DNA of 34,148 bases from an uncultured Geobacteraceae bacterium (GTDB lineage: Bacteria > Desulfobacterota > Desulfuromonadia > Geobacterales > Pseudopelobacteraceae): positions 1 through 34,148 of the forward strand of contig CAIQWT010000099.1 in the NCBI GenBank assembly GCA_903875605.1, given 5' to 3'. Positions 19,355 to 34,148 of the stretch are shown in pieces (position 1 is the first letter of the stretch; each line of letters starts with the position of its first letter). A program made the translations under genes and the position numbers. The notes under the pieces are model-generated. The model had not been told where the DNA came from, ran no database searches, and saw only the letters and a list, made by a program, of their open reading frames with translations.

Positions 19355-19435
19355 GGACATGATGATTAAAATAATAAAATCTTAAGTATGTGTGATTGGC
19401 CCGTTTTTTTATCAACGATATTTCTGAGGGTTAAT

Positions 19436-21394
19436 ATGAGATTTTCGCGACATCACGTTTTCTCGCCAAGTACGCTAACTAGCATCATTATGGTTTTTAT
19501 ATGTGCCCATCTCTTGTCGTCCGTTTCTACGCTATATGCCGCTGATTCTATCCCTGCATCAGATTTTGCCATCAACAAGTCAGTGGTCTTGCTGGGATGC
19601 CTGTTCTTCCTCCTTTGTCTCTTCAGTTTGACTGGACTTGCTCTGAATATCCGCAAACGCTCACGGCTTGAAGAGATACTTCGCTTGAAGATCAACCAAT
19701 ATCAGGATTCACAGGAGGAGTTGCAGGCTACAGAAGAGATGCTGCAAGCACAGATTAGCGAATACATGCAGAGCCAGGATGAACTACAGGCAACGGAAGA
19801 GATGCTTCGTGAGCAAATTGGAGAATATCAGATTGTCCACGATCAGCTGCTGGCAACCGAGGAAATGCTGCGAGTTCAGTTGGAGGTGGCCGTAGAGGGA
19901 TCTCTTAAATTTAAAGCTGTTTTTGAACATTCGCCCATAACGGTTGCTCTTACTAGCCTGCCTGGAGGGGCTTTTAGTGAAGTTAATCAGGCGTTCATAG
20001 ATATGTTTGGCTATTCAAGAGAGGAGGCGATCGGTAAAACCACTGTAGATCTGGGTGTATGGTTGCACGAGTCGGATCGGAATCGCTTTCTGCAACTCTT
20101 GCGTGAACATTCTTTTGTCAATAACTTTGAGGTTGAAATGCAACGTAAAGGCGGGGAGGAGTTTACCGCCATATTTTCGGGTACACTGCTGGAGATTGCC
20201 GACAAACCGTTTGTACTGAGTGCCGTTATGGATATCTCCGACCAAAAACGCTTGCAAAACCAACTGCATCAGTCCCAAAAAATGGATGTAGTCGGTCAGT
20301 TGGCTGGAGGTATTGCCCATGATTTCAATAATATGCTGGCCGGGATCATGGCTGCAGCTGAAATGCTGAAGTTGCGACTGCCGGGTGATGATAAAAACAG
20401 TAAAATGGTGGATACAATCATCGAAGCGGCAAACCGTTCAGCAGACCTTACCCGTGAACTATTGATGTTCTCGCGTAAAGGAGATGCGGTTTCGAGGCCG
20501 GTTCGTATTCATGAAACAATATCTACCGTCATGTCACTGCTTGAACGCACTATTGACAAGCAGATTCAAATAACTTCCCGTATGCAGGCAGATAATCCTG
20601 TTGTTATGGGTGATCAAGCACAACTACAGAATTCGCTGCTCAACCTTGGGGTCAACGCCCGTGACGCAATGCCTCATGGTGGATTTCTGACCTATACAAC
20701 AAGTGTAAAGGATATGGATGTGGCGGCCAATCGATCATTGGGGATCTCCCTTGCAGTCGGTCGTTATCTGGAAATAGCAGTGTCAGATACCGGAATTGGT
20801 ATGACTAAAGGGTTGATGGATCATATCTTCGAACCGTTTTTTACGACCAAGGCGGTTGGTAAAGGAACTGGACTGGGTTTAGCATCTGTTTACGGGACAG
20901 TGCGCAGTCATCAAGGTGAACTGCACGTACAGAGTGAGCCTGGAGTCGGCTCGGTTTTTAAAATGTACCTGCCGATAATTGAGGCGGAATCCGTTGCCAA
21001 GGCATCTGAAGGAGTTGCGCTTACGGGTAAAGGTGGGATCCTGCTGGTAGACGATGAAGAAATTTTACGAGATATCGGCCGCGAATTACTTGAAGATTTT
21101 GGTTATACTGTCTTTCTCGCTGAGAATGGTATTCAAGCGTTAGAGGTGTTTGGATCTCACAGGAATGAGATATCGCTGGTTATTCTTGATATGATAATGC
21201 CGAAGATGGGTGGCAAAGATACCTTCCTGCGGTTACGTGAGGAAGTGCCTGAGCTGAAAGTGCTGTTCTGCTCAGGATTCAGTAGTGAAGGTACAGGATG
21301 TGAACTGGTCAGGATGGGGGCTTGCGGCTTTATTCAAAAACCCTATAACCGCAGTGAGCTGAGTCGGGCAGTCGCGGAGGCACTGGAACTTTGA
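19436..21394 (+). CDS. membrane hybrid histidine kinase (2 TM, coiled-coil repeats, PAS, HisKA, HATPase, REC)
   Basis: Hybrid kinase of 652 residues. Hydrophobic segments at about 14-35 and 49-71 bracket a very short outside loop, so sensing is probably cytoplasmic or within the membrane. Residues 90-152 are three 21-residue coiled-coil repeats, then a PAS domain (about 155-280), the H-box GGIAHDFNN with H295, an N-box near N408, DTGIGM (451-456), GKGTGLGLA (475-483) and a receiver with D585 and K635 (QKPYN). ATG 19436 follows GAGGG with five bases' spacing; the frame is open from 19388. The stop overlaps the sigma-54 regulator start (TTGA), so the two are co-translated and probably partners. 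No Hpt protein is nearby. Confidence 0.92.
   Translation: MRFSRHHVFSPSTLTSIIMVFICAHLLSSVSTLYAADSIPASDFAINKSVVLLGCLFFLLCLFSLTGLALNIRKRSRLEEILRLKINQYQDSQEELQATEEMLQAQISEYMQSQDELQATEEMLREQIGEYQIVHDQLLATEEMLRVQLEVAVEGSLKFKAVFEHSPITVALTSLPGGAFSEVNQAFIDMFGYSREEAIGKTTVDLGVWLHESDRNRFLQLLREHSFVNNFEVEMQRKGGEEFTAIFSGTLLEIADKPFVLSAVMDISDQKRLQNQLHQSQKMDVVGQLAGGIAHDFNNMLAGIMAAAEMLKLRLPGDDKNSKMVDTIIEAANRSADLTRELLMFSRKGDAVSRPVRIHETISTVMSLLERTIDKQIQITSRMQADNPVVMGDQAQLQNSLLNLGVNARDAMPHGGFLTYTTSVKDMDVAANRSLGISLAVGRYLEIAVSDTGIGMTKGLMDHIFEPFFTTKAVGKGTGLGLASVYGTVRSHQGELHVQSEPGVGSVFKMYLPIIEAESVAKASEGVALTGKGGILLVDDEEILRDIGRELLEDFGYTVFLAENGIQALEVFGSHRNEISLVILDMIMPKMGGKDTFLRLREEVPELKVLFCSGFSSEGTGCELVRMGACGFIQKPYNRSELSRAVAEALEL
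19703..19891 (+). repeat. three tandem 63-base units coding 21-residue coiled-coil repeats
   Basis: Units 19703-19765, 19766-19828 and 19829-19891 each encode 21 residues, exactly three heptads, around the core LQATEEML (LLATEEML in the third) and a Q-(I/L)-x-E linker. They form a signalling helix between the second membrane segment and the PAS domain. Confidence 0.85.
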
Positions 21395-22809
21395 AAACAA
21401 CAAACACCACACCTCAGCAACAGGCTACAATTTTGGTTGTAGAAGACGAACAGTACGTCAGGGAGTCTCTGACAGCGTATCTTGATGACATCGGTTACCG
21501 GGTGCTTGAAGCGGAAAACGGTGAGACGGGATTGTCGCTGTTTCGGGAGCAGAAACCCGATATTGTTATGACTGATCTGCGCATGCCGGTGATGGACGGT
21601 TTTGCCCTGGTAGAAGCAATTGCGGCAGAGGCAGAGCTGACGCCGATTGTTGTTGTTTCCGGAGTCGGAGCAGTTGGTGAGGCGGTGCGGGCCATGAGGT
21701 CTGGGGCCTGGGATTATCTTTCCAAGCCAATAGTAAATTTTGAAGAGCTACAACTCACTCTGGAGCGTTCACTGGAAAGGGCCAGGACAAAGCAGGCGTT
21801 AGAGAATCTGCGTCGTCATCTCTCAGAGGGAACGCTGGAGGACGAGACAGCATTCAGTAATATAATCACTGCCTCTCCACGGATGCGCTCTCTGTTTCTT
21901 TATCTAGAGTCAGTCGCCCCATCCCGCCAGCCGGTATTAATCACTGGCGAAACAGGCACCGGAAAAGAATTAATTGCCAGGTCGCTCCACACTTTAAGCA
22001 CTCTTCGTGGCCCGTTTGTGGCGATTAATCTGGCCGGACTTGATGATATCATGTTCAGTGACACCCTCTTTGGTCATCAACGCGGCGCTTACACCGGTGC
22101 TGATAGGGTTCGTGAGGGCTTGATTCGGCAGGCAGCCGGCGGGACTCTTTTTCTGGACGAGATCGGTGACTTGTCGCCAGGATCTCAGATGAAACTGCTC
22201 CGCTTGTTGCAGGAAGGAGAATATCTACCTCTTGGTGCCGACAAGGTACAAAAAAGTGATGTTCGAATTGTGGCTGCGACCCATGCCAACCTGAAAAGTA
22301 AGATGGAACAGGGCACCTTCCGTCCGGACCTGTATTACCGGCTTTTCAGCCACCGTGTTGAGTTGCCGCCACTCCGCGAACGTCCTGAGGATATTCCGCT
22401 GCTGACGTTACATTTTCTGGAGAAGGCAGCCACTATGCTAGGTAAACCCACACCTGTCGCACCGTCAGAGCTGAATAGCTATCTCATGTCCTACCGCTTT
22501 CCCGGCAACATCCGTGAAATGGAAGCACTGATTCACGATGCAGTTGCCCGCTCGGCTAGCCGCACACTATCTCTCGATTCAATTGTGGCGGCGGTCGGCA
22601 GTGATCTACTCGCATCCGCAACGTCATCTCCTGCTGCTACTAACTGCCTGGTCTGCCCGTTTGCAGAAAAGTTTCCAACTATAAAAGGGGCCGAGGAACT
22701 TCTGATAGCGGAGGCGCTGCGACTCGCTGGCAATAACCAGCGGCTTGCCGCTGCCTATCTTGGGATTACTCGCCAGGCTCTTAACAAACGGTTGTGCAGG
22801 AAGGGTTAA
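21391..22809 (+). CDS. sigma-54-dependent response regulator (NtrC family)
   Basis: Activator of 472 residues. The receiver (about 13-130) has D62 as phosphoacceptor (MTDLRMP) and K112. The AAA+ domain has Walker A GETGTGKE (186-193), the sigma-54-contact loop GAYTGA (232-237, Y in place of the usual F), Walker B GTLFLDE (251-257) and an arginine-rich region around 311-331. A Fis-type helix-turn-helix ends the protein (about 437-470, NNQRLAAAYLGITRQALNKR). TTG 21391 overlaps the kinase stop (TTGA), with GGAGG ten bases upstream; any later start would cut into the receiver. It likely activates sigma-54 promoters, and the one at 26711 is an obvious candidate. Its last 29 bases overlap the convergent kinase gene. 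Confidence 0.93.
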   Translation: MKTTNTTPQQQATILVVEDEQYVRESLTAYLDDIGYRVLEAENGETGLSLFREQKPDIVMTDLRMPVMDGFALVEAIAAEAELTPIVVVSGVGAVGEAVRAMRSGAWDYLSKPIVNFEELQLTLERSLERARTKQALENLRRHLSEGTLEDETAFSNIITASPRMRSLFLYLESVAPSRQPVLITGETGTGKELIARSLHTLSTLRGPFVAINLAGLDDIMFSDTLFGHQRGAYTGADRVREGLIRQAAGGTLFLDEIGDLSPGSQMKLLRLLQEGEYLPLGADKVQKSDVRIVAATHANLKSKMEQGTFRPDLYYRLFSHRVELPPLRERPEDIPLLTLHFLEKAATMLGKPTPVAPSELNSYLMSYRFPGNIREMEALIHDAVARSASRTLSLDSIVAAVGSDLLASATSSPAATNCLVCPFAEKFPTIKGAEELLIAEALRLAGNNQRLAAAYLGITRQALNKRLCRKG

Positions 22810-25174
22810 CACTGTTAAGAGATTCTGTATTCCGTGTTAATAACAATGAACTCAAGAGTTGCCCGAATTCTGTCATTTTGTATGGTTTTGCTACAGCCCC
22901 TGCGAACCCGTATTTGCTAAAATCCGAGATGATCGGATCATTTGAATAGCCGCTCGACACGATCAGGCACGCTTTATGATCGATTGCAAGAATCTGTTCT
23001 GCCGTTTCCTTGCCCCCCATGCCACCAGGAATGGTAAGATCCATAATTACCATTGAAAATGATTCCCCTGATTCTCTGGCCGCTTTAAAAAGCTGAACCG
23101 CCTCAGCGCCGTTTACGCATGTTGTAACGCTATACCCCAGAAACTCCAACATTTCAGATGTCATGTCACGAATCATTTCTTCGTCATCCATAACAAGGAT
23201 GGAGCCTCCGCTATGTTCCCCGGTTGTTAGCATGGATGTTTCTGTTTGAGAATCCTTTTGCTCATGGCCGATGGATGGAAGATGGATTGAGAAGGTCGTG
23301 CCTGTTCCTTTGATAGATTTTACTCCGATATGGCCGCCATGCCTGCACACAATCGAGTACGCCGAGGCGAGCCCAAGTCCGTTCCCCGTAAGTTTGGTTG
23401 TGAAATACGGATCAAAAATCCTTTTCAAATCATCATCCGGTATTCCGCACCCTTGATCGGTAAATTTAAGCAGGACATATGTTCCGCCTGGTAATGTCAA
23501 CGTATTACAATCTGCAAGGATCACGTTTTGTGCGGAAACAGTCAGTGTACCGCCTCCCGGCATTGCTTGCGTGGCATTAATAATTATGTTGTGGAATACC
23601 TGACTAATCTGCCCCTCATCCGCATCTATAGCGTGGATAGATTGAATAATGTCAACTTTTCCTTTAACATTTGAACCGTGAAGTACCAGGGAAATACTTT
23701 CGTTTAACAGGTGATGAAGCGAAATTACTTTTTTTATCGGCTCTCCTCCGCGAGCAAATGTCAGAAGCTGATGAGCCAGTTCAGTCGCCCGTACGGAAGC
23801 TTTTTCGGCTTCAAGCAGTGGTTTGTATGATTTGTGATTGGCATCAATAAACATCTGCGCAAAGGAGATATTTCCCATTATTCCTGTAATAATATTATTG
23901 AAATCGTGCGCGATGCCTCCGGCCAGGATGCCGAGGGATTCCAGTTTCTCAATTTTCAGTAGTTCCTTTTCGTGCTCTTTCCGGTCTGTGATGTCGGTGC
24001 TCATCACACATAAGCCTCTTATGCTGCCGTCTTTGCTCTTTAAGGGGAATTTTATTGAAATGGCATAGCGACGTTTCTTTTGCGAATCTTCGAGCTCTTC
24101 TTCTCTCTCGATGCAGGTGCCGCTTGACAATACCTCTAGATCATTATCTCTGAACTGCATACCGCTGGTGTGTGGAAACAGCTCATGGTCTGTTTTGCCG
24201 ATAGCTTCATCCCGTGACACCCCGGTCACTTCTTCCCATTTCCGGTTAACAGTCACATAGCGGCCATCCACCTCTTTGACCGCAATTATCATCCCGCTGT
24301 ACTCAATAATGTCAGCAAGAAACCGTCGGTTTTCTTCCAGGTTGTCTTTTGCCTGTTTCATTTCTGTGATGTCTGTATGTGTCCCGATCATGCGCAGTGG
24401 GGTGCCGTCCTCACTGCGGTTAACCACCGTGCCGCGACCAAGAATCCACTTGTAACTCTCATCCTTGCATCTCAAACGATATTGAACTACATACGTTGCC
24501 GTGTTGCCATTCAAGTAGGCCTGCATTGCTCCGGAAACATATGACTTATCATCTGGATGAATTCGTTGCACCCATTCTTCGTTTGCAGGGTGGATACAAT
24601 CTTCAGAATAACCCAGCATCTCTTTCCAGCGTTTTGTGTATTGTGCCTCGCCGCTCTGGATATTCCAATCCCATACACCGTCACCGGAACCTTCGATGGC
24701 AAATTTCCAGCGATATTCACTCTCATGGAGAGCTTCCTGTGCACGCCTTCGCTTTGTTAACTCTTCTATCAGGCTCTCTTTAACCTGCGAAAACTCAAGC
24801 TTGTTACGATTACATTCTTCTTGGGAACGAGCCAGTTCCAGTTTTTGCTCATTGTTACGATAAGTGGCCTGCTGACAGTTATCGAGCAACATGAGGTGTG
24901 AATGAAGCAGCGCTCCAAGTTGTGCGGTAAGTTCGCTCGGGACAGTAAAATGAAAAAGGAGTGGTGCGCATTGAATCCAGCTGTATTCAGATCCAAACGT
25001 AACTATGATGCCGGTTAGGATGTTGCCAAATGGTGCCAGCGCGTTTTCTGCATCCTCACGGGTTGTCGCCAGAAGAGCAAACGGCCAGCGCCTGACATCT
25101 CTTTGCTCAAGGTTGGGGCGGTACAGAAAAACATCCGGTGCATTTACATTCAGAGATAACAGTGGATAGTTCAT
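22781..25174 (-). CDS. soluble hybrid histidine kinase (novel N-terminus, PAS-PAS, HisKA, HATPase, REC)
   Basis: Cytoplasmic hybrid kinase of 797 residues without membrane segments. Residues 1-100 match no domain I know. A coiled coil (about 105-150) leads to PAS 1 with a PAC motif (about 152-273, HPDDK and MIGTHTDIT) and PAS 2 (about 284-398). The H-box is GGIAHDFNN with H423; NIIINATQAMPGGG, DQGCGIPDDD and GNGLGLAS are the ATPase boxes; the receiver has D712 and K763. ATG 25174 follows GGGAG and lies one base after the FIST stop; the frame continues upstream only by overlapping FIST. It is probably fed by the FIST protein. It is not the same clade of kinase as 28491, whose H-box is AHEINN. 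Confidence 0.92.
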   Translation of the reverse strand: MNYPLLSLNVNAPDVFLYRPNLEQRDVRRWPFALLATTREDAENALAPFGNILTGIIVTFGSEYSWIQCAPLLFHFTVPSELTAQLGALLHSHLMLLDNCQQATYRNNEQKLELARSQEECNRNKLEFSQVKESLIEELTKRRRAQEALHESEYRWKFAIEGSGDGVWDWNIQSGEAQYTKRWKEMLGYSEDCIHPANEEWVQRIHPDDKSYVSGAMQAYLNGNTATYVVQYRLRCKDESYKWILGRGTVVNRSEDGTPLRMIGTHTDITEMKQAKDNLEENRRFLADIIEYSGMIIAVKEVDGRYVTVNRKWEEVTGVSRDEAIGKTDHELFPHTSGMQFRDNDLEVLSSGTCIEREEELEDSQKKRRYAISIKFPLKSKDGSIRGLCVMSTDITDRKEHEKELLKIEKLESLGILAGGIAHDFNNIITGIMGNISFAQMFIDANHKSYKPLLEAEKASVRATELAHQLLTFARGGEPIKKVISLHHLLNESISLVLHGSNVKGKVDIIQSIHAIDADEGQISQVFHNIIINATQAMPGGGTLTVSAQNVILADCNTLTLPGGTYVLLKFTDQGCGIPDDDLKRIFDPYFTTKLTGNGLGLASAYSIVCRHGGHIGVKSIKGTGTTFSIHLPSIGHEQKDSQTETSMLTTGEHSGGSILVMDDEEMIRDMTSEMLEFLGYSVTTCVNGAEAVQLFKAARESGESFSMVIMDLTIPGGMGGKETAEQILAIDHKACLIVSSGYSNDPIISDFSKYGFAGAVAKPYKMTEFGQLLSSLLLTRNTESLNSVNPSCTTVC

Positions 25175-25175
25175 A

Positions 25176-26333
25176 TTACGCTCCCAAAAGACAGATGACA
25201 CAGGTGGCGTTATGGAAGTAGGACTCGGTGTATGAAAGGTCATCTTTTAGGAATGGACCTATTTCACCAAAAGAAGGAAAGCCTACAAGAGGTATTTGAT
25301 TCCCTATAGCACTCTGAATCGCCTGCACTTCCTCTTCCCCGCGATTGTTTAGCTGCCATTTCCTGCCGGCACAACTCACTACTATAGCAGCAGCCGGAAT
25401 GAATCCGGATCTAACAATGCTTGTAATACAGCTGGATATGGCTTTCAGCAGCTGTTCTCGATCGGCACCGCTTACGCGGATGGTTGCACCCGAAGGTATG
25501 CTGCCAAAGGTGGTAATTGTACCTGTCCGCATATCGAAACGGAATGATGAGCGGAGGTAAAATCGTTCTAAAGACGAATCGGTATAGGTGGCAAGAGCGA
25601 GTATTCCCAGATCAGCCTCTGCGAGTGGTTTGCCGATCTGGTCCCTTATAAAATCCAGTGGATTAAGCCCGCTGATACTTATGGTTGTCTTGCCGTCCGA
25701 CTCTCCGACTATCCCGGGAACCCCAATCGGCAGGAAGCCGCTGGCTGAATTAGTAATAAAAGGCATTGCTCCGGATGCGAGCAGAATTGCAACTCCGTCT
25801 TCAATGTTGCCTCCGTTGAGGAATAGTCGGCTGCGAGTAAATTTTCTGTCATCACCTGTCATCCCTCCAATGAACGGAAACGAAAAAACGTCACGCACTC
25901 CGGAAGCGATGCAGGTTCCATCGGCCGTGACGCCATCTGCCAGAACAAAGGCCCATTCAGCTTTTCCGCCAAGCTGTTCAAGAGCAGCAGAAGCGCACGC
26001 GCGCGCTGTGGTTAATGAATCGGCGCCGACTCCTGTCTTCACTGCGACGCCCCATTTTGTCATGCCATCTGACGTAATTCCAAGGGCACACACTCCGTAG
26101 TGTGCGGTCATGGAAGTTTCATAAATACCGTCACCAGTACCGCCGAACACAATTACATCTCTGGTTTCAAGGCCATCGTACAATCCGGTGAAAAAATCTG
26201 CATATTCGAGTTCAAACGTAATTGAGGCAAATAGCAGAATCACTTCCGGTGCCATATCTTTCAGCGTTTCGCCAATGGTGCTTCCAGCCTGATAGGCATC
26301 AGTAAGAGAAGTGCTGGCTGATTTGTACCTCAT
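25176..26333 (-). CDS. FIST-domain sensor protein
   Basis: Protein of 385 residues made only of the FIST N and FIST C domains. FIST is a known sensory module, proposed to bind small ligands such as amino acids, and is often fused to kinases, GGDEF or chemoreceptor modules. Visible features: LLFASITFE, FGGTGDGIYE, FIGGMTGDDRKF, ISGLNPLDFIRDQIG and the C-terminal signature GFPSFGEIGP (351-360). No membrane segment. A strong AAGGAGG precedes ATG 26333. The kinase gene starts one base after its stop, so this appears to be a split sensor-kinase pair, with FIST acting in trans (inference). The ligand cannot be read from sequence. Confidence 0.9.
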   Translation of the reverse strand: MRYKSASTSLTDAYQAGSTIGETLKDMAPEVILLFASITFELEYADFFTGLYDGLETRDVIVFGGTGDGIYETSMTAHYGVCALGITSDGMTKWGVAVKTGVGADSLTTARACASAALEQLGGKAEWAFVLADGVTADGTCIASGVRDVFSFPFIGGMTGDDRKFTRSRLFLNGGNIEDGVAILLASGAMPFITNSASGFLPIGVPGIVGESDGKTTISISGLNPLDFIRDQIGKPLAEADLGILALATYTDSSLERFYLRSSFRFDMRTGTITTFGSIPSGATIRVSGADREQLLKAISSCITSIVRSGFIPAAAIVVSCAGRKWQLNNRGEEEVQAIQSAIGNQIPLVGFPSFGEIGPFLKDDLSYTESYFHNATCVICLLGA

Positions 26334-26542: not shown

Positions 26543-26556
26543 TGCGACAATAGTCA
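26543..26556 (-). promoter_or_regulatory. box A, candidate activator site (NRACWWTWGTCGCA)
   Basis: On the minus strand it reads TGACTATTGTCGCA. With box B it forms an inverted pair: TGCGACAA (26543-26550) and TTGTCGCA (26569-26576) are exact complements. It lies about 155 bases before the sigma-54 -24 element. Confidence 0.5.
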
Positions 26557-26562
26557 CTGTTG

Positions 26563-26576
26563 AGACATTTGTCGCA
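26563..26576 (+). promoter_or_regulatory. box B, candidate activator site (NRACWWTWGTCGCA)
   Basis: Reads AGACATTTGTCGCA, six bases from box A in opposite orientation, so centres are 20 bases apart, about two helical turns. It lies about 135 bases before the -24 element, a usual range for enhancer-binding proteins. Confidence 0.5.
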
Positions 26577-26608
26577 ATTAGTCTAACATCCTGAATTGTC
26601 ACAATAAA

Positions 26609-26635
26609 ATCATATTAATGGTAATCCCCTGTCAA
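26609..26635 (-). promoter_or_regulatory. candidate sigma-70 promoter for FIST-kinase operon
   Basis: Reading leftward, TTGACA (26635-26630) is a perfect -35 and TATGAT (26614-26609) a five-of-six -10, but the spacing is 15 bases, shorter than ideal. The leader would be about 270 bases. The -35 overlaps box C (26633-26646). Confidence 0.3.
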
Positions 26636-26646
26636 CAATAGTCGCA
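26633..26646 (+). promoter_or_regulatory. box C, candidate activator site (NRACWWTWGTCGCA)
   Basis: Reads CAACAATAGTCGCA, in the same orientation as box B and exactly 70 bases downstream of it. It is about 65 bases upstream of the -24 element and overlaps the possible -35 of the leftward FIST promoter. Confidence 0.5.
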
Positions 26647-26710
26647 AGAGTCCGGACATTCTAGTGGATATAACTATCTATAATAACTCCGCAAAAAAGG
26701 TTTTAGTCTA

Positions 26711-26726
26711 TGGCACGCCATATGCT
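26711..26726 (+). promoter_or_regulatory. sigma-54 (RpoN) promoter, -24/-12
   Basis: TGGCACG-N4-ATGCT: the -24 element matches the TGGCACG consensus in full and the -12 element matches TTGCW at four of five bases; GG (26712-26713) and GC (26724-26725) are separated by exactly ten bases. Transcription would start near 26737, giving a leader of about 58 bases before ATG 26795. Confidence 0.72.
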
Positions 26727-26794: not shown

Positions 26795-28438
26795 ATGAAG
26801 CTTAAAATGTACAAGGATTGGGGCATTTTTACAAAGATCATGAGTCTGTCAGTGCTGACGTGGCTGGTATTGGTAGCAGCGACTATTTTTGCACTGGTGC
26901 CTTTTATCCGTGGGCTGATCATGGAAGAGAAGCAGGCCACTGTCAGCTATCTCGTCCAGGAAGCAACCAGTATGCTTTCGTCATACCAGAAGCAGGTAGA
27001 ATCCGGAATACTCACTAAAGAAGAAGCTCAAAAACGGGCTTCCGAGCGAATAAGTGCCATCCGTTATGACGGCTCAAACTATCTCTGGATTAATGACCTT
27101 GGCCCGAAAATGGTCATGCACCCGATCAAGCCTGAGCTGAACGGCAAAGATTTAAGTGAAAATAAAGATCCGAATGGTAAAGCTCTTTTTATGGAAATGG
27201 TCAAGGTCTGCAAAGATAAAGGCAAAGGCTTCGTAGATTACGCCTGGTCCAAGCCTGGTAACAGCAAGCCGGTGCCCAAAATATCTTACGTGGAACTTTA
27301 CCAGCCGTGGGGTTGGGTGATCGGCACCGGTATCTACGTTGATGATGTGACAGCCCACGTCCGTCAGATTCAGATCGGCATAGGTATCGCCCTGATGGGT
27401 ATTCTGATGCTTAGTACCCTGTTGGCCTGGCTGGTGTCGCGAACAGTAATTGGGCCGATCAAGGCGGTAGTTGACACTATAAGAGATATTGCTCAGGGTG
27501 ATGGCGACCTGACCCGCCGGCTGCCGATTGTCGGCAGGAACGAAATCGGTGAACTGAGTGAATGGTTCAATACATTTATCGGTAAACTTCACGGCATTAT
27601 CAATCAGGTTTCCGGCAGCTCATTGCAACTGGCATCCTCCTCTCTTGAACTCCAGTTGACTTCCAGGCAGATGACGGAAAGCATAGCTCAGCTCTCTTCT
27701 CAATCAACTTCGCTGGCAACTGCCGGTGAAGAGATGTCTGCCACCTCAGGCGATATTGCAAATAACTGCCATCAGGCCGCCGGTAATGCCGGAGGTGCGA
27801 CTCAGAAAGCCAAGCAGGGGGCGGCTGTTGTCGGTCAATCCATAGCAGTCATGAACAGTATCGCCGAGCGGGTCCAAAAAGCAGCCGGTACAGTTGATGC
27901 TTTGGGAGTTCGCTCTGAACAAATCGGCGCCATAATCGGCACTATCGAAGATATCGCTGATCAGACTAATCTGCTGGCGCTGAATGCCGCAATTGAAGCG
28001 GCACGAGCAGGTGAACAGGGCCGCGGTTTTGCTGTAGTTGCTGATGAAGTACGTGCACTGGCCGAACGCACCACCCGTGCAACCAAAGAAATCGGTGAAA
28101 TGATCAAAGCCATCCAGAAAGAGACTAAAGATGCTGTTGTCTCTATGGAACAGAGCGTTGTTCAGGTTGAGCAGGGGACCAGCCATGCTGCAGAATCAGG
28201 ACGCTCATTGCAGGAAATCCTTGATATCATCAATGATGTCACCGAGCAGATCAGTCAGATTGCTACTGCAGCAGAAGAGCAGACAGCCACGACCCGCGAA
28301 ATCAGTTGCAACGTAATGAGTCTCAACGATCTGGCACAGCAGAATGATCACGCACTCCATGAAACAGCGCTAGCTGCCAATGATGTCTCGCGTCAGGCCG
28401 AAGAGTTGAAGCAGTTAGTCGGTCAGTTCAGGCTATAA
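26795..28438 (+). CDS. methyl-accepting chemotaxis protein with sCache domain
   Basis: Chemoreceptor of 547 residues in the inner membrane. Membrane helix 1 at about 17-39, an sCache_2-like periplasmic domain (about 45-188, with [15 protein letters not shown] and the [11 protein letters not shown] ending typical of this family), membrane helix 2 at about 192-216, HAMP (217-270), and a signalling domain whose hairpin tip is [18 protein letters not shown] (407-424). Such sCache domains often bind small organic acids; the ligand is unknown. No C-terminal CheR-tethering pentapeptide is present. ATG 26795 follows GGGGGA; an in-frame TTG at 26771 would add eight residues. It is preceded by the sigma-54 promoter and followed by a kinase gene 52 bases on without terminator. 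Confidence 0.95.
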
Positions 28439-28490: not shown

Positions 28491-29684
28491 ATGTCGCCTA
28501 AATCAGCAGAAATATTTTTTAAAAGCGAATCGCGCTACCGTATGCTAGTAGAAAACTCCTGCGACATCATCTTTTCACTGAATATGGAAGGTAACTTCAC
28601 CTATATTTCTCCCGCCTGGGAGAAAATTCTCGGCCATGAACCATCCGGGATTATAGGGCATAATTTTAGGGAATTTATCCATCCGGAAGATATCTCACTC
28701 TGTGAAACTTCAATTTTAACGTCTGTTCAGACCAAATCGGCACAGGAGATGACCTATCGCATTCATCATGCAGATGGCGGCTGGCGCCGACATACATCTC
28801 GCGGCACGCCGCATTTGGATGAAGACGGTCTGCTGACGTTTATAGGCATGGCTCATGATGTTACCGAGCAACTCCGCATTGAAGAAATAATGATACAGAC
28901 GGAAAAAATGATCATGATCAGCGGTATGGCTGCCGGTATGGCACACGAGATCAATAACCCGCTGGGTGCTATACTGCAGCATGCCCAGAACATAGAGAGG
29001 CGGGTATCAGACGATATTCCGGCAAATTTAAAAGTTGCTGCTGAGATTGGGGTTGATCTCGACCTGGTACGGGTATATCTACAAAAACGGGGTATCCTGG
29101 ATTTTATCAGCCACATTCGAACCGCTGGAATGAGGGCTTCGGATATCATATCTAAAATGCTCCATTTTAGTCGGCGCGGCGAGTCCGGTACTGAATATAC
29201 CGATATTCCGGCTCTATTAGACAGGGTGCTTAATCTTGCAGGTACCGATTATGACATGAAGAAAAAATATAATTTTCATCGCATTGAGCTGCTGCGCCTT
29301 TACGCACCCGAGCTGCCGCCGGTTGAGATGGCCGTTGTGGAAATAGAGCAGGCTATATTGAATATCCTCAAAAACGCTGCTCAGGCGATCTCAGGTGCGG
29401 AGCTGAACCGACCTCCGCGAATAACAGTGCGGGCATTATTGTCTTCGGGGATGGTTGTGATCAAAATAGAGGACAACGGACCTGGTATGGACGAGGCAAC
29501 CAGAATGCGGATTTTCGAACCTTTTTTTTCCACCCGAGAGGTTGGTATGGGTACCGGTCTGGGGTTGTCGGTAGCCTATGCAATAATCACCAAGAGGCAC
29601 CATGGATCAATTGATGTCCAGTCTCAAGCCGGTGTGGGAAGCAGCTTTACCATCAAGCTGCCATTGCAGGGGGAAGCGTTATGA
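28491..29684 (+). CDS. PAS histidine kinase with expanded HisKA region
   Basis: Soluble kinase of 397 residues: PAS (about 13-130, with FIHPEDI and GMAHDVTEQ), H-box GMAHEINNPLGAILQ with H152, N-box around N295, G1 box DNGPGM (329-333), then STREVGMGTGLGLS. About 35 residues (about 172-207, containing EIGVDLDLVRVYLQKRGIL) lie between the H-box helix and the second helix (AGMRASDIISKMLHFSR), longer than in a standard HisKA hairpin. I recall this extended form from other deltaproteobacterial kinases. AAAGGAG precedes ATG 28491. The stop overlaps the receiver gene start (ATGA), so kinase and lone receiver are likely partners. Confidence 0.92.
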   Translation: MSPKSAEIFFKSESRYRMLVENSCDIIFSLNMEGNFTYISPAWEKILGHEPSGIIGHNFREFIHPEDISLCETSILTSVQTKSAQEMTYRIHHADGGWRRHTSRGTPHLDEDGLLTFIGMAHDVTEQLRIEEIMIQTEKMIMISGMAAGMAHEINNPLGAILQHAQNIERRVSDDIPANLKVAAEIGVDLDLVRVYLQKRGILDFISHIRTAGMRASDIISKMLHFSRRGESGTEYTDIPALLDRVLNLAGTDYDMKKKYNFHRIELLRLYAPELPPVEMAVVEIEQAILNILKNAAQAISGAELNRPPRITVRALLSSGMVVIKIEDNGPGMDEATRMRIFEPFFSTREVGMGTGLGLSVAYAIITKRHHGSIDVQSQAGVGSSFTIKLPLQGEAL

Positions 29685-30070
29685 ATAATGCCGATATCAG
29701 GGTGCTGCTGGTTGATGACGACGATATGATCCGCGACTGTATAATGGCCTATCTTGATGACGAAGGTTTTAGTGTGCGCGGTGCGGCCTGTGGCGAAGAA
29801 GCTTTGGAAATAATTCATTTACTCAATCCGGCGGTCTGTATATCGGATATGAGGCTCCCTGGAATGAGTGGAGAACAGTTCATTGCCGCGGCTTATGCTC
29901 TTTGCCCATCAACTGGATACCTTCTCCACACAGGCATGCACTATTCTCTGTCTGATTCTTTGTGTGCCATCGGGATGACTGACGACGACATTCTGCTCAA
30001 GCCGATCCATGATTTGTCGAAACTAGTGAGAAAAATCAAGAGCAGTGCCGTAGCCTGGAGCAATAAATGA
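29681..30070 (+). CDS. single-domain response regulator (REC)
   Basis: Receiver-only protein of 129 residues. Acidic pocket D12-D14, phosphoacceptor D56 (CISDMRLPGMSG), switch T84 and K107 (LLKPIHD). It has no output domain, so it may shuttle phosphate or act by contact. It overlaps the kinase upstream and the REC-PAS-GGDEF-EAL gene downstream by four bases each (ATGA), showing tight co-translation. Partner assignment to the kinase at 28491 is inference from this overlap. Confidence 0.92.
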   Translation: MNNADIRVLLVDDDDMIRDCIMAYLDDEGFSVRGAACGEEALEIIHLLNPAVCISDMRLPGMSGEQFIAAAYALCPSTGYLLHTGMHYSLSDSLCAIGMTDDDILLKPIHDLSKLVRKIKSSAVAWSNK

Positions 30071-32187
30071 TGAATCGAATCGCTGCAAATATGGTGTTGT
30101 TAACCATTGACGACGAAGAATCAATTCGCACCAGTGTGGCCGCTTTTTTTGAAGATTGTGGTTTTGTCGTGCTTCAGGCCTGTGATGGTCGCGAAGGGAT
30201 TGATATGATCCATTCCATGCACCCGGATGTTGTTATTACAGACCTGCGAATGCCGAACGTGGATGGCATGGATGTGGTAGATGCAGCCAGGAAACACAAT
30301 GATAATCTGCCGGTCATAGTTCTTTCAGGCACCGGAGTGCTGTCAGATGCAACTGAAGCGATGCGTCGTGGAGCCTGGGACTATCTCAGCAAGCCGGTTG
30401 TTGATCTTGTCGAGCTAGAGATGGTTGTTGCCCGCTGTATCGAACGGGCTGGTCTGGTTCAGGAGAACCGGAATTACCATGATAATCTGGAGATGCTGGT
30501 CAAGCAGAGAACTGCTGAATTGCGCAAACTGAATGCCGCAGTAGAACAGAGCGCCAACAGTGTTATTATCACCGATATTAATGGAATTATTGAATACGTA
30601 AATCCAAAATTTACGGTAGTCTCAGGATATAGCAGTGAAGAGGCTATAGGTCAGAATCCGCGTATTCTTAAGTCAGGCAAACAGGCGGACAGCTATTATG
30701 TTGAAATGTGGAAAACCATAAGTTCCGGTAAGGAGTGGCAGGGCGAATTTTGTAACAAAACCAAAAATGGCCGGCAGTTCTGGGAGTTGGCAAGTATTGC
30801 CCCGATTAAGAATGAAGCCGGCATGATAACTAATTTTGTTGCCATAAAAGAGGATATTACCGGCCGCAAACAGCATGAAGACCAACTCTATTATCAGGCC
30901 AACTTTGACGCACTGACCGGTTTGCCTAATCGCCATTATTTTCAGAATTATCTTGAGCTTCAACTGGAGTTGCTTAACCGCGAAAACCAGTTTTTGACAC
31001 TGATGGTTCTGGATATTGATAATCTCAAATACGTAAACGACACATTTGGTCATGAATTCGGGGATAATCTGATTAAGGAAATCTCCCGTCGCCTTGAGGC
31101 GGTCTGCGGGCACGAATGCGTTGTGTCACGTTTTGTTGGAGATGAATTTACAATTATTCCACCACTGTCTAATGATGCCGATGACTCAAAAAATCGAGCA
31201 GAGCAGATTCGTTGTGCCATGAATGATGTTTTTACCGTTAAAGGAACGGATATTATTGCAACTGCAAGTATTGGTGTGGTGGTCTATCCGGAAGATGGCG
31301 AAAGCGTGGAAAGCTTGTTGAAAAATGGTGAAGCGGCCATGTATCAAGCGAAGAAAGAGGGGAAAAACGCTATCAGTTTCTATACCCGCGAATTGAACAG
31401 CCAGCTTGAACAGCGCTTTGCCCTGGAAGCAAAGCTTCACAAAGCCATCGATCGGGGAGAGTTCAGTTTACAGTACCAGCCGCAAATCAACCACACTCTA
31501 GGCTCTATAATTGGCGTGGAAGCGCTTCTTCGCTGGACGCCAACCGGTGAGGGGCCCGTCTCACCAAGCCTTTTTGTGCCGATTCTGGAGGAGAGCGGGA
31601 TGATCGTAGCGGTCGGTGAATGGGTGCTGTGGCATGCCTGTGAGCAGGCCGTAGAATGGCAGAAGCTTGGACTGATAGGTTTACGCATGTCGATTAATAT
31701 TTCAGCACTGCAGTTCATGCGCAGCGATCTAGATGTTGCCGTCAAGCGTGTGCTGGAGGCAACCGGGCTGGATCCGCATCGCCTCTGTCTGGAGCTGACC
31801 GAAAGTATGATCATGGTGGACAGTTCACGAACTCTTGAAAAAATGAACGCTCTGGCGCAGATCGGCGTCATTTTATCGCTGGATGATTTCGGCACCGGTT
31901 ATTCTTCACTCGAATATTTGGGACGACTGCCGATCAACGAGTTGAAAATCGACATATCGTTCGTTCGTCGGATGCTGACTACCAGAAACGATGCAGCAGT
32001 GGTTAATACGATCATTGCCATGGGGCAGGGACTTGATATGGAGTTGGTTGCCGAGGGGGTAGAGACGAAGGAGCAGCTGCTATATCTGACTGAGCGGGAG
32101 TGCGGAATTATACAGGGCTTTTATTTCAGCGAACCACTAAAGTCGAATGAAGTCTTGCTATTCTATAATGATTGGAGCTCAAAGTAG
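30067..32187 (+). CDS. REC-PAS-GGDEF-EAL c-di-GMP turnover protein
   Basis: Response regulator of 706 residues controlling the second messenger c-di-GMP. Receiver (about 10-130; D59 phosphoacceptor, K109), coiled coil (about 135-155), PAS (about 158-268), GGDEF domain (about 275-440) and EAL domain (about 452-700). The GGDEF motif is VGDEF (357-361), its first glycine replaced by valine, and the RxxD inhibitory site upstream is absent (GHEC at 348-351). The EAL domain keeps EALLRW (485-490), N544, E576, D606/D607, K627 and E663, so phosphodiesterase activity is the safer prediction; cyclase activity is uncertain. Its receiver resembles that of the sigma-54 regulator at 21391 (shared AMR-x-GAWDYLSKP). 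ATG 30067 and 30070 are both possible starts. Confidence 0.93.
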   Translation: MMNRIAANMVLLTIDDEESIRTSVAAFFEDCGFVVLQACDGREGIDMIHSMHPDVVITDLRMPNVDGMDVVDAARKHNDNLPVIVLSGTGVLSDATEAMRRGAWDYLSKPVVDLVELEMVVARCIERAGLVQENRNYHDNLEMLVKQRTAELRKLNAAVEQSANSVIITDINGIIEYVNPKFTVVSGYSSEEAIGQNPRILKSGKQADSYYVEMWKTISSGKEWQGEFCNKTKNGRQFWELASIAPIKNEAGMITNFVAIKEDITGRKQHEDQLYYQANFDALTGLPNRHYFQNYLELQLELLNRENQFLTLMVLDIDNLKYVNDTFGHEFGDNLIKEISRRLEAVCGHECVVSRFVGDEFTIIPPLSNDADDSKNRAEQIRCAMNDVFTVKGTDIIATASIGVVVYPEDGESVESLLKNGEAAMYQAKKEGKNAISFYTRELNSQLEQRFALEAKLHKAIDRGEFSLQYQPQINHTLGSIIGVEALLRWTPTGEGPVSPSLFVPILEESGMIVAVGEWVLWHACEQAVEWQKLGLIGLRMSINISALQFMRSDLDVAVKRVLEATGLDPHRLCLELTESMIMVDSSRTLEKMNALAQIGVILSLDDFGTGYSSLEYLGRLPINELKIDISFVRRMLTTRNDAAVVNTIIAMGQGLDMELVAEGVETKEQLLYLTERECGIIQGFYFSEPLKSNEVLLFYNDWSSK

Positions 32188-32278: not shown

Positions 32279-34148
32279 ATGTCTACAGATTATTATCTTC
32301 GTCTGCGCCGCAGATTTATCAGTGCCGTTATACTTGTGCTTGTAGCATTATCAGGTGTGGTGTACGTACACGGAATTCCTGAAAGAGAGCTACAGTTCTC
32401 AGTTGCCGGACTTGCTGTTAGTTGTCTGCTGTTAGTTCTGCTGACAGTGCTGCCATATATTTTTCTGCAACAATTCAAGAAGCTTGAGCAGGTCAACCGT
32501 AAACTTGAGGAGCAGCAAATCGATCTTGAACTCAAAGTCGAACTGCTTGACGCCGCTTCCGACGCAATTCTGCTGCTTGATGAGAAAGGGCAGTTTGTCT
32601 ATTTTAATACTGCACTGCAGGCCATGACCGGGTATAGCCGTGAGGAATTACTGCTAAAAGGTCTTCATGGAATACAGCCACCTGAATTTGCCGCCCGGAT
32701 ACAGGAAAATATCAAAAGAGTTTTTGATCATGGAGAAGCATATTTCGAGTCTGCGTATGTTCGTAATATCGGGGATATTCTGCCGATAGAAGTTCACGCC
32801 CGGGTGACAAATGTTAATGGCCGAACTCAGATTCTAAGTATGGTGCGTGATATAAGGGAACGTAAAGAGTCCGATAACAAAATAAAAACTACAATCAAGG
32901 AATGGCAGGGAACCTTTGATTCCGTTGAGGACGTGGTATGGTTGCTGGATATTAACCGTACAATCATCCGTGCTAATAAAGCCACTGAGAGTGTGTTCAA
33001 AAAACTTTCTCAGGACGTAATCGGTTGCAGTTGCTGTGAAGTTTCACATAGTGACATGATTCAGCATGAGAACTGCCCATTTGCACGGATGCTAGAAACT
33101 AAAAAACGTGCATCAATGCAGCTCCACATCGCAGACAGGTGGTTTGAAGTCTCCGTTGATCCTGTCTTCTCAGAAGATGCTACTATTATTAATGCCGTTC
33201 ATATCGTTAAGGATATTACTGATTTGAAAAAGGCAGAGATGCGTGAAATAGTCCGTTCAGAAATTCTGGAACGAATTGCACGCGGTGAGTCGCTTTCCGG
33301 GCTTCTCTCGTTTATTGCCACTTCGATTGAGAATGAAAATCCAGGAATGCTCTGTTCAATACTGTTGGTCAGTGATGACGGTAAAAGATTGTTGAACGGG
33401 GCTGCTCCAAGTTTGCCAGACATTTATAACAGTGCAACCCATCGCACAAAAATCGGTGATGGAATTGGTTCGTGCGGTACTGCTGCTTTCCGGATGAAGC
33501 GGGTTATTGTGGAAGACATTAATACGCATCCCTTTTGGAAAGGTTTTGCACCCGCTCAGGTTGCCGGGCTACGCTCGTGCTGGTCTGAACCGATTATTTC
33601 ATCAACAGGCCTGCTGCTCGGCACCTTTGCCATCTATCATCGATCTCCGGCTATTCCTACTGAAAACGAAATATCACTTATCCAACAGGCATCTGCTTTT
33701 GCCGGTATCGCTATAGAGCGGAGTCGAGGTGAAGCTGAGCGCATGGAGTTGGAACAGTTGCTGAGCCAGTCGCAGAAAATGGAGGCAATTGGGCACCTGT
33801 CTGGTGGCATAGCCCATGATTTTAATAACTTATTGACACCTGTTTTAATTTACGCCGACATGCTTAAGCGTTCATTGCCGGATAACGATAAGGCACGGTC
33901 TCAGCTTGACGGTATTATTAAAGCATCCGGCAAGGCACGGGATCTGACGCAGCAACTACTCAGCTTCGGGCGTAAGCAGGTCATGCAGATACAAGTCGTA
34001 GATCTGAACGACGTTATCATGTCTTTCTATTCGATGGTGCGCCGGACGCTGCGTGAAAATATAAGTCTTAGTCTGCAGCTTTCCGGACAACCGGTTGTGG
34101 TTCGTGCTGATATTTCAAAGATAGAGCAGGTGCTCTTGAATATGGTAC
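32279..34148 (+). CDS. membrane histidine kinase (2 TM, PAS, PAS, GAF, HisKA, partial HATPase), cut by window end
   Basis: Open frame from ATG 32279 (GGAG seven bases upstream) to the window end, 623 codons without stop. Two hydrophobic segments (about 12-30 and 43-66) are followed by a coiled coil, a PAS domain (about 80-195, ending MVRDIRERKE), a second PAS domain with a cysteine cluster (CSCC then NCPF, about 250-275), a GAF domain (about 325-485, with GSCGTAAF and the EPIISSTG-LLLGTFAIYHRSP stretch), the H-box GGIAHDFNNLL and the start of the ATPase domain. The rest of the ATPase domain and any receiver lie outside. The GAF plus cysteine-bearing PAS suggest cytoplasmic ligand or redox sensing (inference). 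The 91-base gap upstream shows no terminator, so it may belong to the chemoreceptor operon. Confidence 0.9.
   Translation, partial: MSTDYYLRLRRRFISAVILVLVALSGVVYVHGIPERELQFSVAGLAVSCLLLVLLTVLPYIFLQQFKKLEQVNRKLEEQQIDLELKVELLDAASDAILLLDEKGQFVYFNTALQAMTGYSREELLLKGLHGIQPPEFAARIQENIKRVFDHGEAYFESAYVRNIGDILPIEVHARVTNVNGRTQILSMVRDIRERKESDNKIKTTIKEWQGTFDSVEDVVWLLDINRTIIRANKATESVFKKLSQDVIGCSCCEVSHSDMIQHENCPFARMLETKKRASMQLHIADRWFEVSVDPVFSEDATIINAVHIVKDITDLKKAEMREIVRSEILERIARGESLSGLLSFIATSIENENPGMLCSILLVSDDGKRLLNGAAPSLPDIYNSATHRTKIGDGIGSCGTAAFRMKRVIVEDINTHPFWKGFAPAQVAGLRSCWSEPIISSTGLLLGTFAIYHRSPAIPTENEISLIQQASAFAGIAIERSRGEAERMELEQLLSQSQKMEAIGHLSGGIAHDFNNLLTPVLIYADMLKRSLPDNDKARSQLDGIIKASGKARDLTQQLLSFGRKQVMQIQVVDLNDVIMSFYSMVRRTLRENISLSLQLSGQPVVVRADISKIEQVLLNMV

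Follow-up and report, generated by a model that had tools for sequence, protein, structure and literature searches.

Promoters of the NtrC-type sigma-54 systems, such as that of glnA, carry upstream activating sequences, and the consensus site of NtrC itself is TGCACC-N5-GGTGCA. For Desulfovibrio vulgaris Hildenborough, a study of the sigma-54 regulome predicts activator sites upstream of sigma-54 promoters; according to the excerpts of it used here, the largest fraction of promoters lies at most 100 nt from the closest activator site, and some regulator genes are co-localised with their targets (PMC4641369). In Geobacter, sigma-54 elements are predicted before che, mcp or flagellar operons (PMC2577667); the word 'enhancer' does not occur in the main text of that paper, and its excerpts hold no activator sites. 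Control regions of the same general kind are also described, in the excerpted parts, in a study that maps response regulators (PMC3333781) and in one of the Geobacter RpoN regulon (PMC2725144). The sites described below are marked by GTCGC and GCGAC; neither string occurs in the main texts of PMC4641369, PMC3333781 and PMC2725144, and the excerpts of PMC12316311 hold nothing on these sites. In the literature, covered mostly by the opening of abstracts, we found no published description of them, and the literature on CrdA-type chemosensory systems yielded none either.

The control region analysed here precedes a chemoreceptor gene in a window of 34,148 nucleotides (the whole stretch of DNA under study) that belongs to genome G000, whose contigs are labelled C8, C25, C32, C61, C70 and so on. 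It contains three sites, A, B and C, upstream of a -24/-12 element (Table 1). Together these are very probably a genuine conserved upstream activating sequence of the promoter at 26711-26726.

Table 1. Features of the control region, the genes around it and a paralogous regulator of the same genome (G000). Positions are those of the window unless a contig is named.
Feature	Position	Strand	Basis and remarks
Hybrid histidine kinase	19388-21394	+	Pfam; 4-base overlap with the activator gene
NtrC-family response regulator, proposed activator	21391-22809	+	Pfam: receiver, sigma-54 AAA+, Fis-type HTH
PAS-kinase-receiver protein	22781-25243	-	Pfam; between activator and sites
FIST-domain protein	25176-26333	-	Pfam; between activator and sites
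Site A	26543-26558	-	Plus strand reads TGCGACAATAGTCACT, minus strand has the strong half GTCGCA; exact box
Site B	26561-26576	+	TGAGACATTTGTCGCA; exact box; 18 bp from A
Site C	26631-26646	+	GTCAACAATAGTCGCA; exact box
TAAC of conserved A+T-rich element	26671-26674	+	Between site C and promoter
-24/-12 sigma-54 promoter	26711-26726	+	TGGCACGCCATATGCT; top score on both strands of the window; place kept in relatives
Chemoreceptor (sCache_2, HAMP, MCPsignal), first gene of the controlled operon	26795-28438	+	Pfam; ATG after GGGGGAA
PAS histidine kinase, likely operon	28491-29684	+	Pfam
Receiver protein, likely operon	29681-30070	+	Pfam
Receiver-PAS-GGDEF-EAL protein, likely operon	30067-32187	+	Pfam
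Histidine kinase-like gene, off the window end	32279-34147	+	Open frame and synteny
Paralogous NtrC-family regulator (L288)	G000:C8:108634-110040		44.5% identity to the 21391 protein; RQALNKRL

The three boxes lie where the first-pass annotation had put them: the pattern matches without mismatch at 26543-26555 (minus), 26564-26576 (plus) and 26634-26646 (plus), and nowhere else in the 34 kb. The boxes form the strong halves of imperfect inverted repeats (TGCRAC-N4-GTCGCA), given here as 16-mers. Boxes A and B had been described as an inverted pair two helical turns apart; the inverted arrangement holds, and the site centres are 18 bp apart rather than two turns. Site C follows 70 bp past site B, and the distances of about 65-170 bases upstream of the -24 element are as claimed. 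The hexamer had been expected about 0.2 times in 461 bases, and its 17 occurrences in the window give a similar figure (about 0.23 per 461). The 461-base spacer holds GTCGCA twice and TGCGAC once, and three or more hexamers appeared in none of 3000 Markov-1 sequences with the spacer's composition. The notion that the hexamer recurs by chance in an A+T-rich spacer could appeal to the loose box pattern, which is not clearly enriched in the window; with two mismatches allowed it matches 15 times (shuffle mean 9.2), a number that 6 of 100 shuffles reach, so this pattern means little. Against chance stand the random spacers just mentioned and the spacing kept in 21 relatives, and since conserved spacing refutes it we give this notion practically no weight.

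The promoter TGGCACGCCATATGCT has the GG-N10-GC of sigma-54 promoters and scores 20.5 of 21.5 as a -24/-12 element, with the runner-up in the window at 18.5; in the direction of the FIST gene, on the spacer's minus strand, the top score is 15.0 of 21.5. The genome encodes sigma-54 itself (PF04552 match at C94, E 2.0e-63, above cut-off). Between site C and the promoter, 19 of 23 spacers, the window counted, have the TAAC of the A+T-rich element 39-41 bases ahead of the TGGCA of the -24 box, and the element is a possible candidate site for a DNA-bending protein. By eye, the fit of this element to the IHF consensus, as an excerpt of PMC7962754 quotes it, looks poor.

The gene order after the chemoreceptor (28491-32187) is identical in six fetched relatives, and in several relatives the 32279 histidine kinase-like gene also comes after the operon. 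The proposed activator matches PF00072, PF00158 and PF02954, all above the Pfam cut-offs, and carries GETGTGKE, DLRMP and, at residue 232, the GAFTGA loop as GAYTGA, a variant that we take to be a working form. No NCBIfam equivalog cut-off was reached (best 25 of 116 families), so it is not assigned to NtrC, AtoC, ZraR or another named subfamily; the best two were AtoC (345.6 bits, cut-off 714) and ntrC (340.4 bits, cut-off 558.6). Its two closest named relatives, at 80% and 78%, are both in Geobacteraceae MAGs. The hybrid kinase 19388, which adjoins the activator in several relatives, is the likely kinase of this regulator; further upstream are a CheX-like gene on the minus strand and then a PPIase.

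The regulator gene had been placed 4 kb from the boxes, which is roughly right, the gene end at 22809 being 3.7 kb from box A. This gap exists because the kinase-FIST pair sits between regulator and sites in the window; the pair is missing in the 12 fetched relatives where the regulator directly precedes the chemoreceptor gene. G018 and G016 have a convergent kinase beside the regulator, as in the window. None of the FIST orthologues (14 relatives) is divergently paired with a chemoreceptor in the stretches covered, so they are of no use for comparing spacers.

We compared 22 spacers from 21 related genomes, with the window kept out of training. Excluded from this set were G018n and G016n (regulator 3' flanks without the sites) and G060 (other boxes); the region upstream of a second chemoreceptor in G005 (C12, L112) stayed outside the comparison, and site A of G037, which the script's pattern missed, was placed by hand. 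The distance from A to B is +18 in 21 of the 22 spacers and in the window (+15 in G018), and that from A to C is +85 to +87 (window +88). Since B, C and the promoter were each placed at the best match inside a given range, what carries information is how constant these positions are. The first-pass annotation had looked to orthologous spacers for a verdict on its boxes, and there both sequence and spacing are kept, with the inverted-repeat sites holding their place upstream of the promoter as in an upstream activating sequence. The boxes might instead serve a repressor, or some other regulator with no relation to sigma-54, and stand near the -24/-12 element only incidentally, and the region does hold two weak sigma-70-like matches, about as many as in shuffles (mean 1.6); yet C stands at a fixed +78 to +82 bp from the -24 element in the 22 spacers (+80 in the window) and the set remains linked to the activator gene, which makes this alternative very improbable.

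Models built from the relatives only recover the sites of the window. The A model ranks site A first in the 34 kb (17.1 vs next 12.1 bits), and the C model does the same for site C (20.5 vs next 11.5 bits). In 3000 random spacers the score of A was reached once and that of C never. The best scores in 40 random sequences of 34 kb were 18.9 (A model) and 18.3 (C model); since the 17.1 bits of A fall within this range, site A rests on its position and conservation. Site B is weaker, with 8.5 bits by the A model (eighth in the window) and matches at 7-11 of 12 positions in the relatives' spacers. A model pooled from A, B and C places C first in the window (15.8) and A only sixth (11.7); pooling thus yields a motif too loose to pick out site A.

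The N-terminal 227 residues of the chemoreceptor were searched against 147 genomes, of which 97 matched, and gave at least 30 chemoreceptor loci, the window among them, with further matches that had no locus. By the relatives-based models, A and C are both present in 13 of 30 upstream regions, namely the window and 12 relatives; as these 12 belonged to the training set, their tally describes and does not test. All 12 have a 21391 orthologue with at least 58% identity. Among the 17 loci without the set, such an orthologue occurs in two genomes, G016 and G038, and in G038 the set is placed before another cluster instead of the chemoreceptor locus. For eight of the 17, no scored protein exceeds 49% (16 candidates scored per genome), and seven were outside the regulator comparison (G099, G102, G104-G107 and G112). 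The upstream DNA is short in three of the 17: L040 (32 bases), L041 (296) and L049 (295). The upstream regions scored at L048 and L050 have a sigma-54-like element and lack the site set.

The annotation's suggestion that the 21391 regulator and the boxes belong together is well supported by gene order, as tblastn shows it for 30 fetched stretches. A 21391 orthologue lies immediately 5' of the set in 20 of the 22 conserved spacers. Orthologues with at least 58% identity are present in 22 relatives (97 searched), and 21 of the 22 carry the set. The exception, G016, lacks it in the two places examined, the regulator's 3' flank and the region before the chemoreceptor. Both proteins are kept in that genome (regulator 78-79%, L099, C14; chemoreceptor 88-90%, L098, C13), and its chemoreceptor comes, by eye, after a CheW-like gene. 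The two exceptions to linkage are the chemoreceptor copy of G005 and G018: in G005 the set occurs both at the regulator's 3' flank and at the chemoreceptor operon about 14 kb away, and in G018 regulator and operon are on different contigs. G006 and G018 have a second, similar set before a CheA-type cluster (CheA by eye), with no 21391 homologue found within the fetched stretch.

The genes that follow the regulator and its set differ among relatives. They are the chemoreceptor operon in, for example, G013, G026 and G029, and a kinase in G028 and G025. In G038 the set is followed by a small gene that matches nothing in Pfam and by genes for a STAS protein (barely over cut-off), CheA, CheW and a chemoreceptor, and G005n, G021, G011, G001 and G024 resemble G038 downstream by eye.

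The stretch RQALNKRL at the end of the HTH, presumably the recognition helix of the 21391 protein, occurs in the window, in 12 printed training-set relatives and in six loci of other genera (G062, G065, G070, G074, G056 and G063), which were selected for an adjoining homologue of 47-49% identity. At these six loci GTCGCA boxes and a sigma-54 element again come after the regulator gene, and the fit of the site to the A model ranges from 13 to 31 bits. The regulator of G060 (52%) has RSALNKKI, and its flank carries CTGCGAAA boxes instead. The protein and site patterns fit a RQALNKRL helix that would read the GTCGCA bases, though the contrast comes from a single divergent case.

Elsewhere in the genome the exact box is rare. 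A scan for it upstream of other -24/-12 promoters had been proposed as a check: beyond the three matches in the window there are five (eight in all), none regulatory-looking, four being inside open frames and one without a nearby sigma-54 element, so in its exact form the box does not mark a regulon across this genome. Allowing one mismatch, the palindrome shows no genome-wide enrichment (111 matches vs 140 in the reversed control). A strict box-plus-promoter pattern matches once in the genome and never in the control; its relaxed form, run over 147 genomes, was too loose, with frequent control matches. From the relaxed scan we chose 19 places by eye and added one chemoreceptor-paralogue region of G000; a convincing site set was absent, by eye, in 8 of the 19 (L157, L158, L160, L162, L165, L173, L174 and L176). 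The G000 stretches on C76 and C4 gave no useful result.

Broader patterns do reveal related sets. With at most one mismatch, TGTCAACNNNNGTCGCW matches 17 times in the genome (8 in the reversed control), and exactly only at the window's site C and at C61:18904. An A-like site lies upstream of such matches at 93 bases on C61 (17.3 bits), 87 on C32 (12.9) and 86 on C70 (9.9), while C8:118324 has one at 67 bases (10.5 bits); all four sets are outside long open frames. The pattern GTTGC-N3-4-KCAAC-N4-GTC, which the window's own A/B pair does not match, occurs seven times at five places (control 0), several of them preceding -24/-12-like elements; its match on C25 has no full pair. G030 and G020, which are without a close 21391 orthologue and have RQALNKRL regulators, hold 10 and 7 matches of it.

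Three of these places have recognisable neighbours. On C61 (18904-19030; L206/L210) an A/B and C set is flanked by a gene that looks cheW-like by eye and by one for an FKBP-type PPIase (Pfam), and its sigma-54 element, AGGAACAAAACATGCA, is weak. On C32 (28283-28381; L290) a site set with TGGCACATTAGTTGTA precedes two genes that, by eye, encode a histidine kinase-like protein and then a receiver-type regulator. On C70 (L289), A/B and C sites in a comparable arrangement precede a TGGCACATAAGTTGTAA element in the region that separates a PilR-like gene from a type IV pilin-like frame downstream of it (2951-2745, minus strand, 68 residues); the HTH of this PilR-like protein differs from that of 21391.

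Such sets raise the main alternative, namely that the sites of the window are used in this cell by the contig-8 paralogue, alone or together with the 21391 protein. The two proteins, 44.5% identical, have RQALNKRL in common (ISRQALNKRL in the paralogue vs ITRQALNKRL), and similar A/B and C sets occur on C8, C32, C61 and C70. In G037, moreover, a paralogue-like gene (C422) is preceded by a set whose B and C both read GTCGCT, which means that the two regulators overlap in their half-sites; the site architecture is common to at least two paralogous regulators, and the contig-8 protein could cross-bind the window's sites. The shared stretch leaves the pairing with 21391 short of certain. Several observations nevertheless count against the paralogue. 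The outer halves of the genome's five other A/B pairs are GTCT, GTCA, GTAC or GATT and never GTCGCA, though two C sites are GTCGCT; the GTCGCA-type set adjoins the 21391 orthologue in 20 of the 22 spacers; G028 retains set and regulator yet has no close match to the paralogue's HTH; and in G032, the sole genome examined that combines a paralogue-like protein with a chemoreceptor orthologue while missing a close 21391 orthologue, the region before the chemoreceptor holds no set. Use of the sites by the paralogue is therefore unlikely in our judgement. The paralogue's own gene cluster is itself preceded by an A/B-type pair and a TGGCACACTAGTTGTA element (C8:107179).

We consider it probable, though not proven, that the 21391 protein is the activator that uses the boxes, its phosphorylated form binding them as an upstream activating sequence and switching on the chemoreceptor operon through sigma-54. 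What is observed are the sites, their spacing and conservation, and their link to 21391 orthologues; from these we infer the following course. The hybrid kinase 19388, whose gene overlaps that of the regulator, would probably phosphorylate it, and dimers of the regulator would occupy A and B as neighbours and, at a distance, C, contacting DNA through the Fis-type HTH. An AAA+ oligomer could then assemble on the sites, the A+T-rich spacer would be looped over, and the oligomer would open the sigma-54 polymerase complex. The operon for chemoreceptor, kinase, receiver protein and GGDEF-EAL protein would thereby be switched on. The contig-8 paralogue, G016, the weak site B and the pooled-model rank of A speak against this explanation, as do the score of A within the random range, the palindrome's lack of enrichment and the frequent control matches of the box-plus-promoter pattern.

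A more tentative reading, which we hold to be possible but doubtful, is that a site and promoter cassette at the activator's 3' end preserved its layout through exchanges of its target genes (chemoreceptor operon, kinase operon or STAS-CheA-CheW-MCP cluster), and that in this genome two paralogues with the same stretch share this layout and are told apart mostly through the outer half-sites, with the second driving, among others, the pilin-like gene. The separation by outer half-sites is weakened by the GTCGCT in the paralogue-linked set of G037.

For an operon of chemosensory and c-di-GMP signalling genes in Geobacteraceae-like bacteria, the locus offers an operator motif that can be put to the test, together with a likely regulator. 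With a paralogue that carries the identical HTH stretch and has sites like these, it would also allow a clean test of whether and how closely related enhancer-binding proteins separate their sites. The control region is familiar in kind and specific in detail. Like NtrC-type sigma-54 promoters with upstream activating sequences, for example glnA, it has inverted-repeat sites about 65-170 bp before the -24 element, and, as in those systems, the regulator combines a receiver, an AAA+ domain and a Fis-type HTH. Unlike that of NtrC, the site is TGCRAC-N4-GTCGCA and stands ahead of a chemoreceptor and c-di-GMP operon. The lineage differs from that of the D. vulgaris Hildenborough regulome, and in both, as far as the excerpts of that study go, predicted activator sites lie upstream of sigma-54 promoters. 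As at the chemotaxis clusters in the excerpted Geobacter study, a predicted sigma-54 element precedes a chemoreceptor operon, here together with activator sites.
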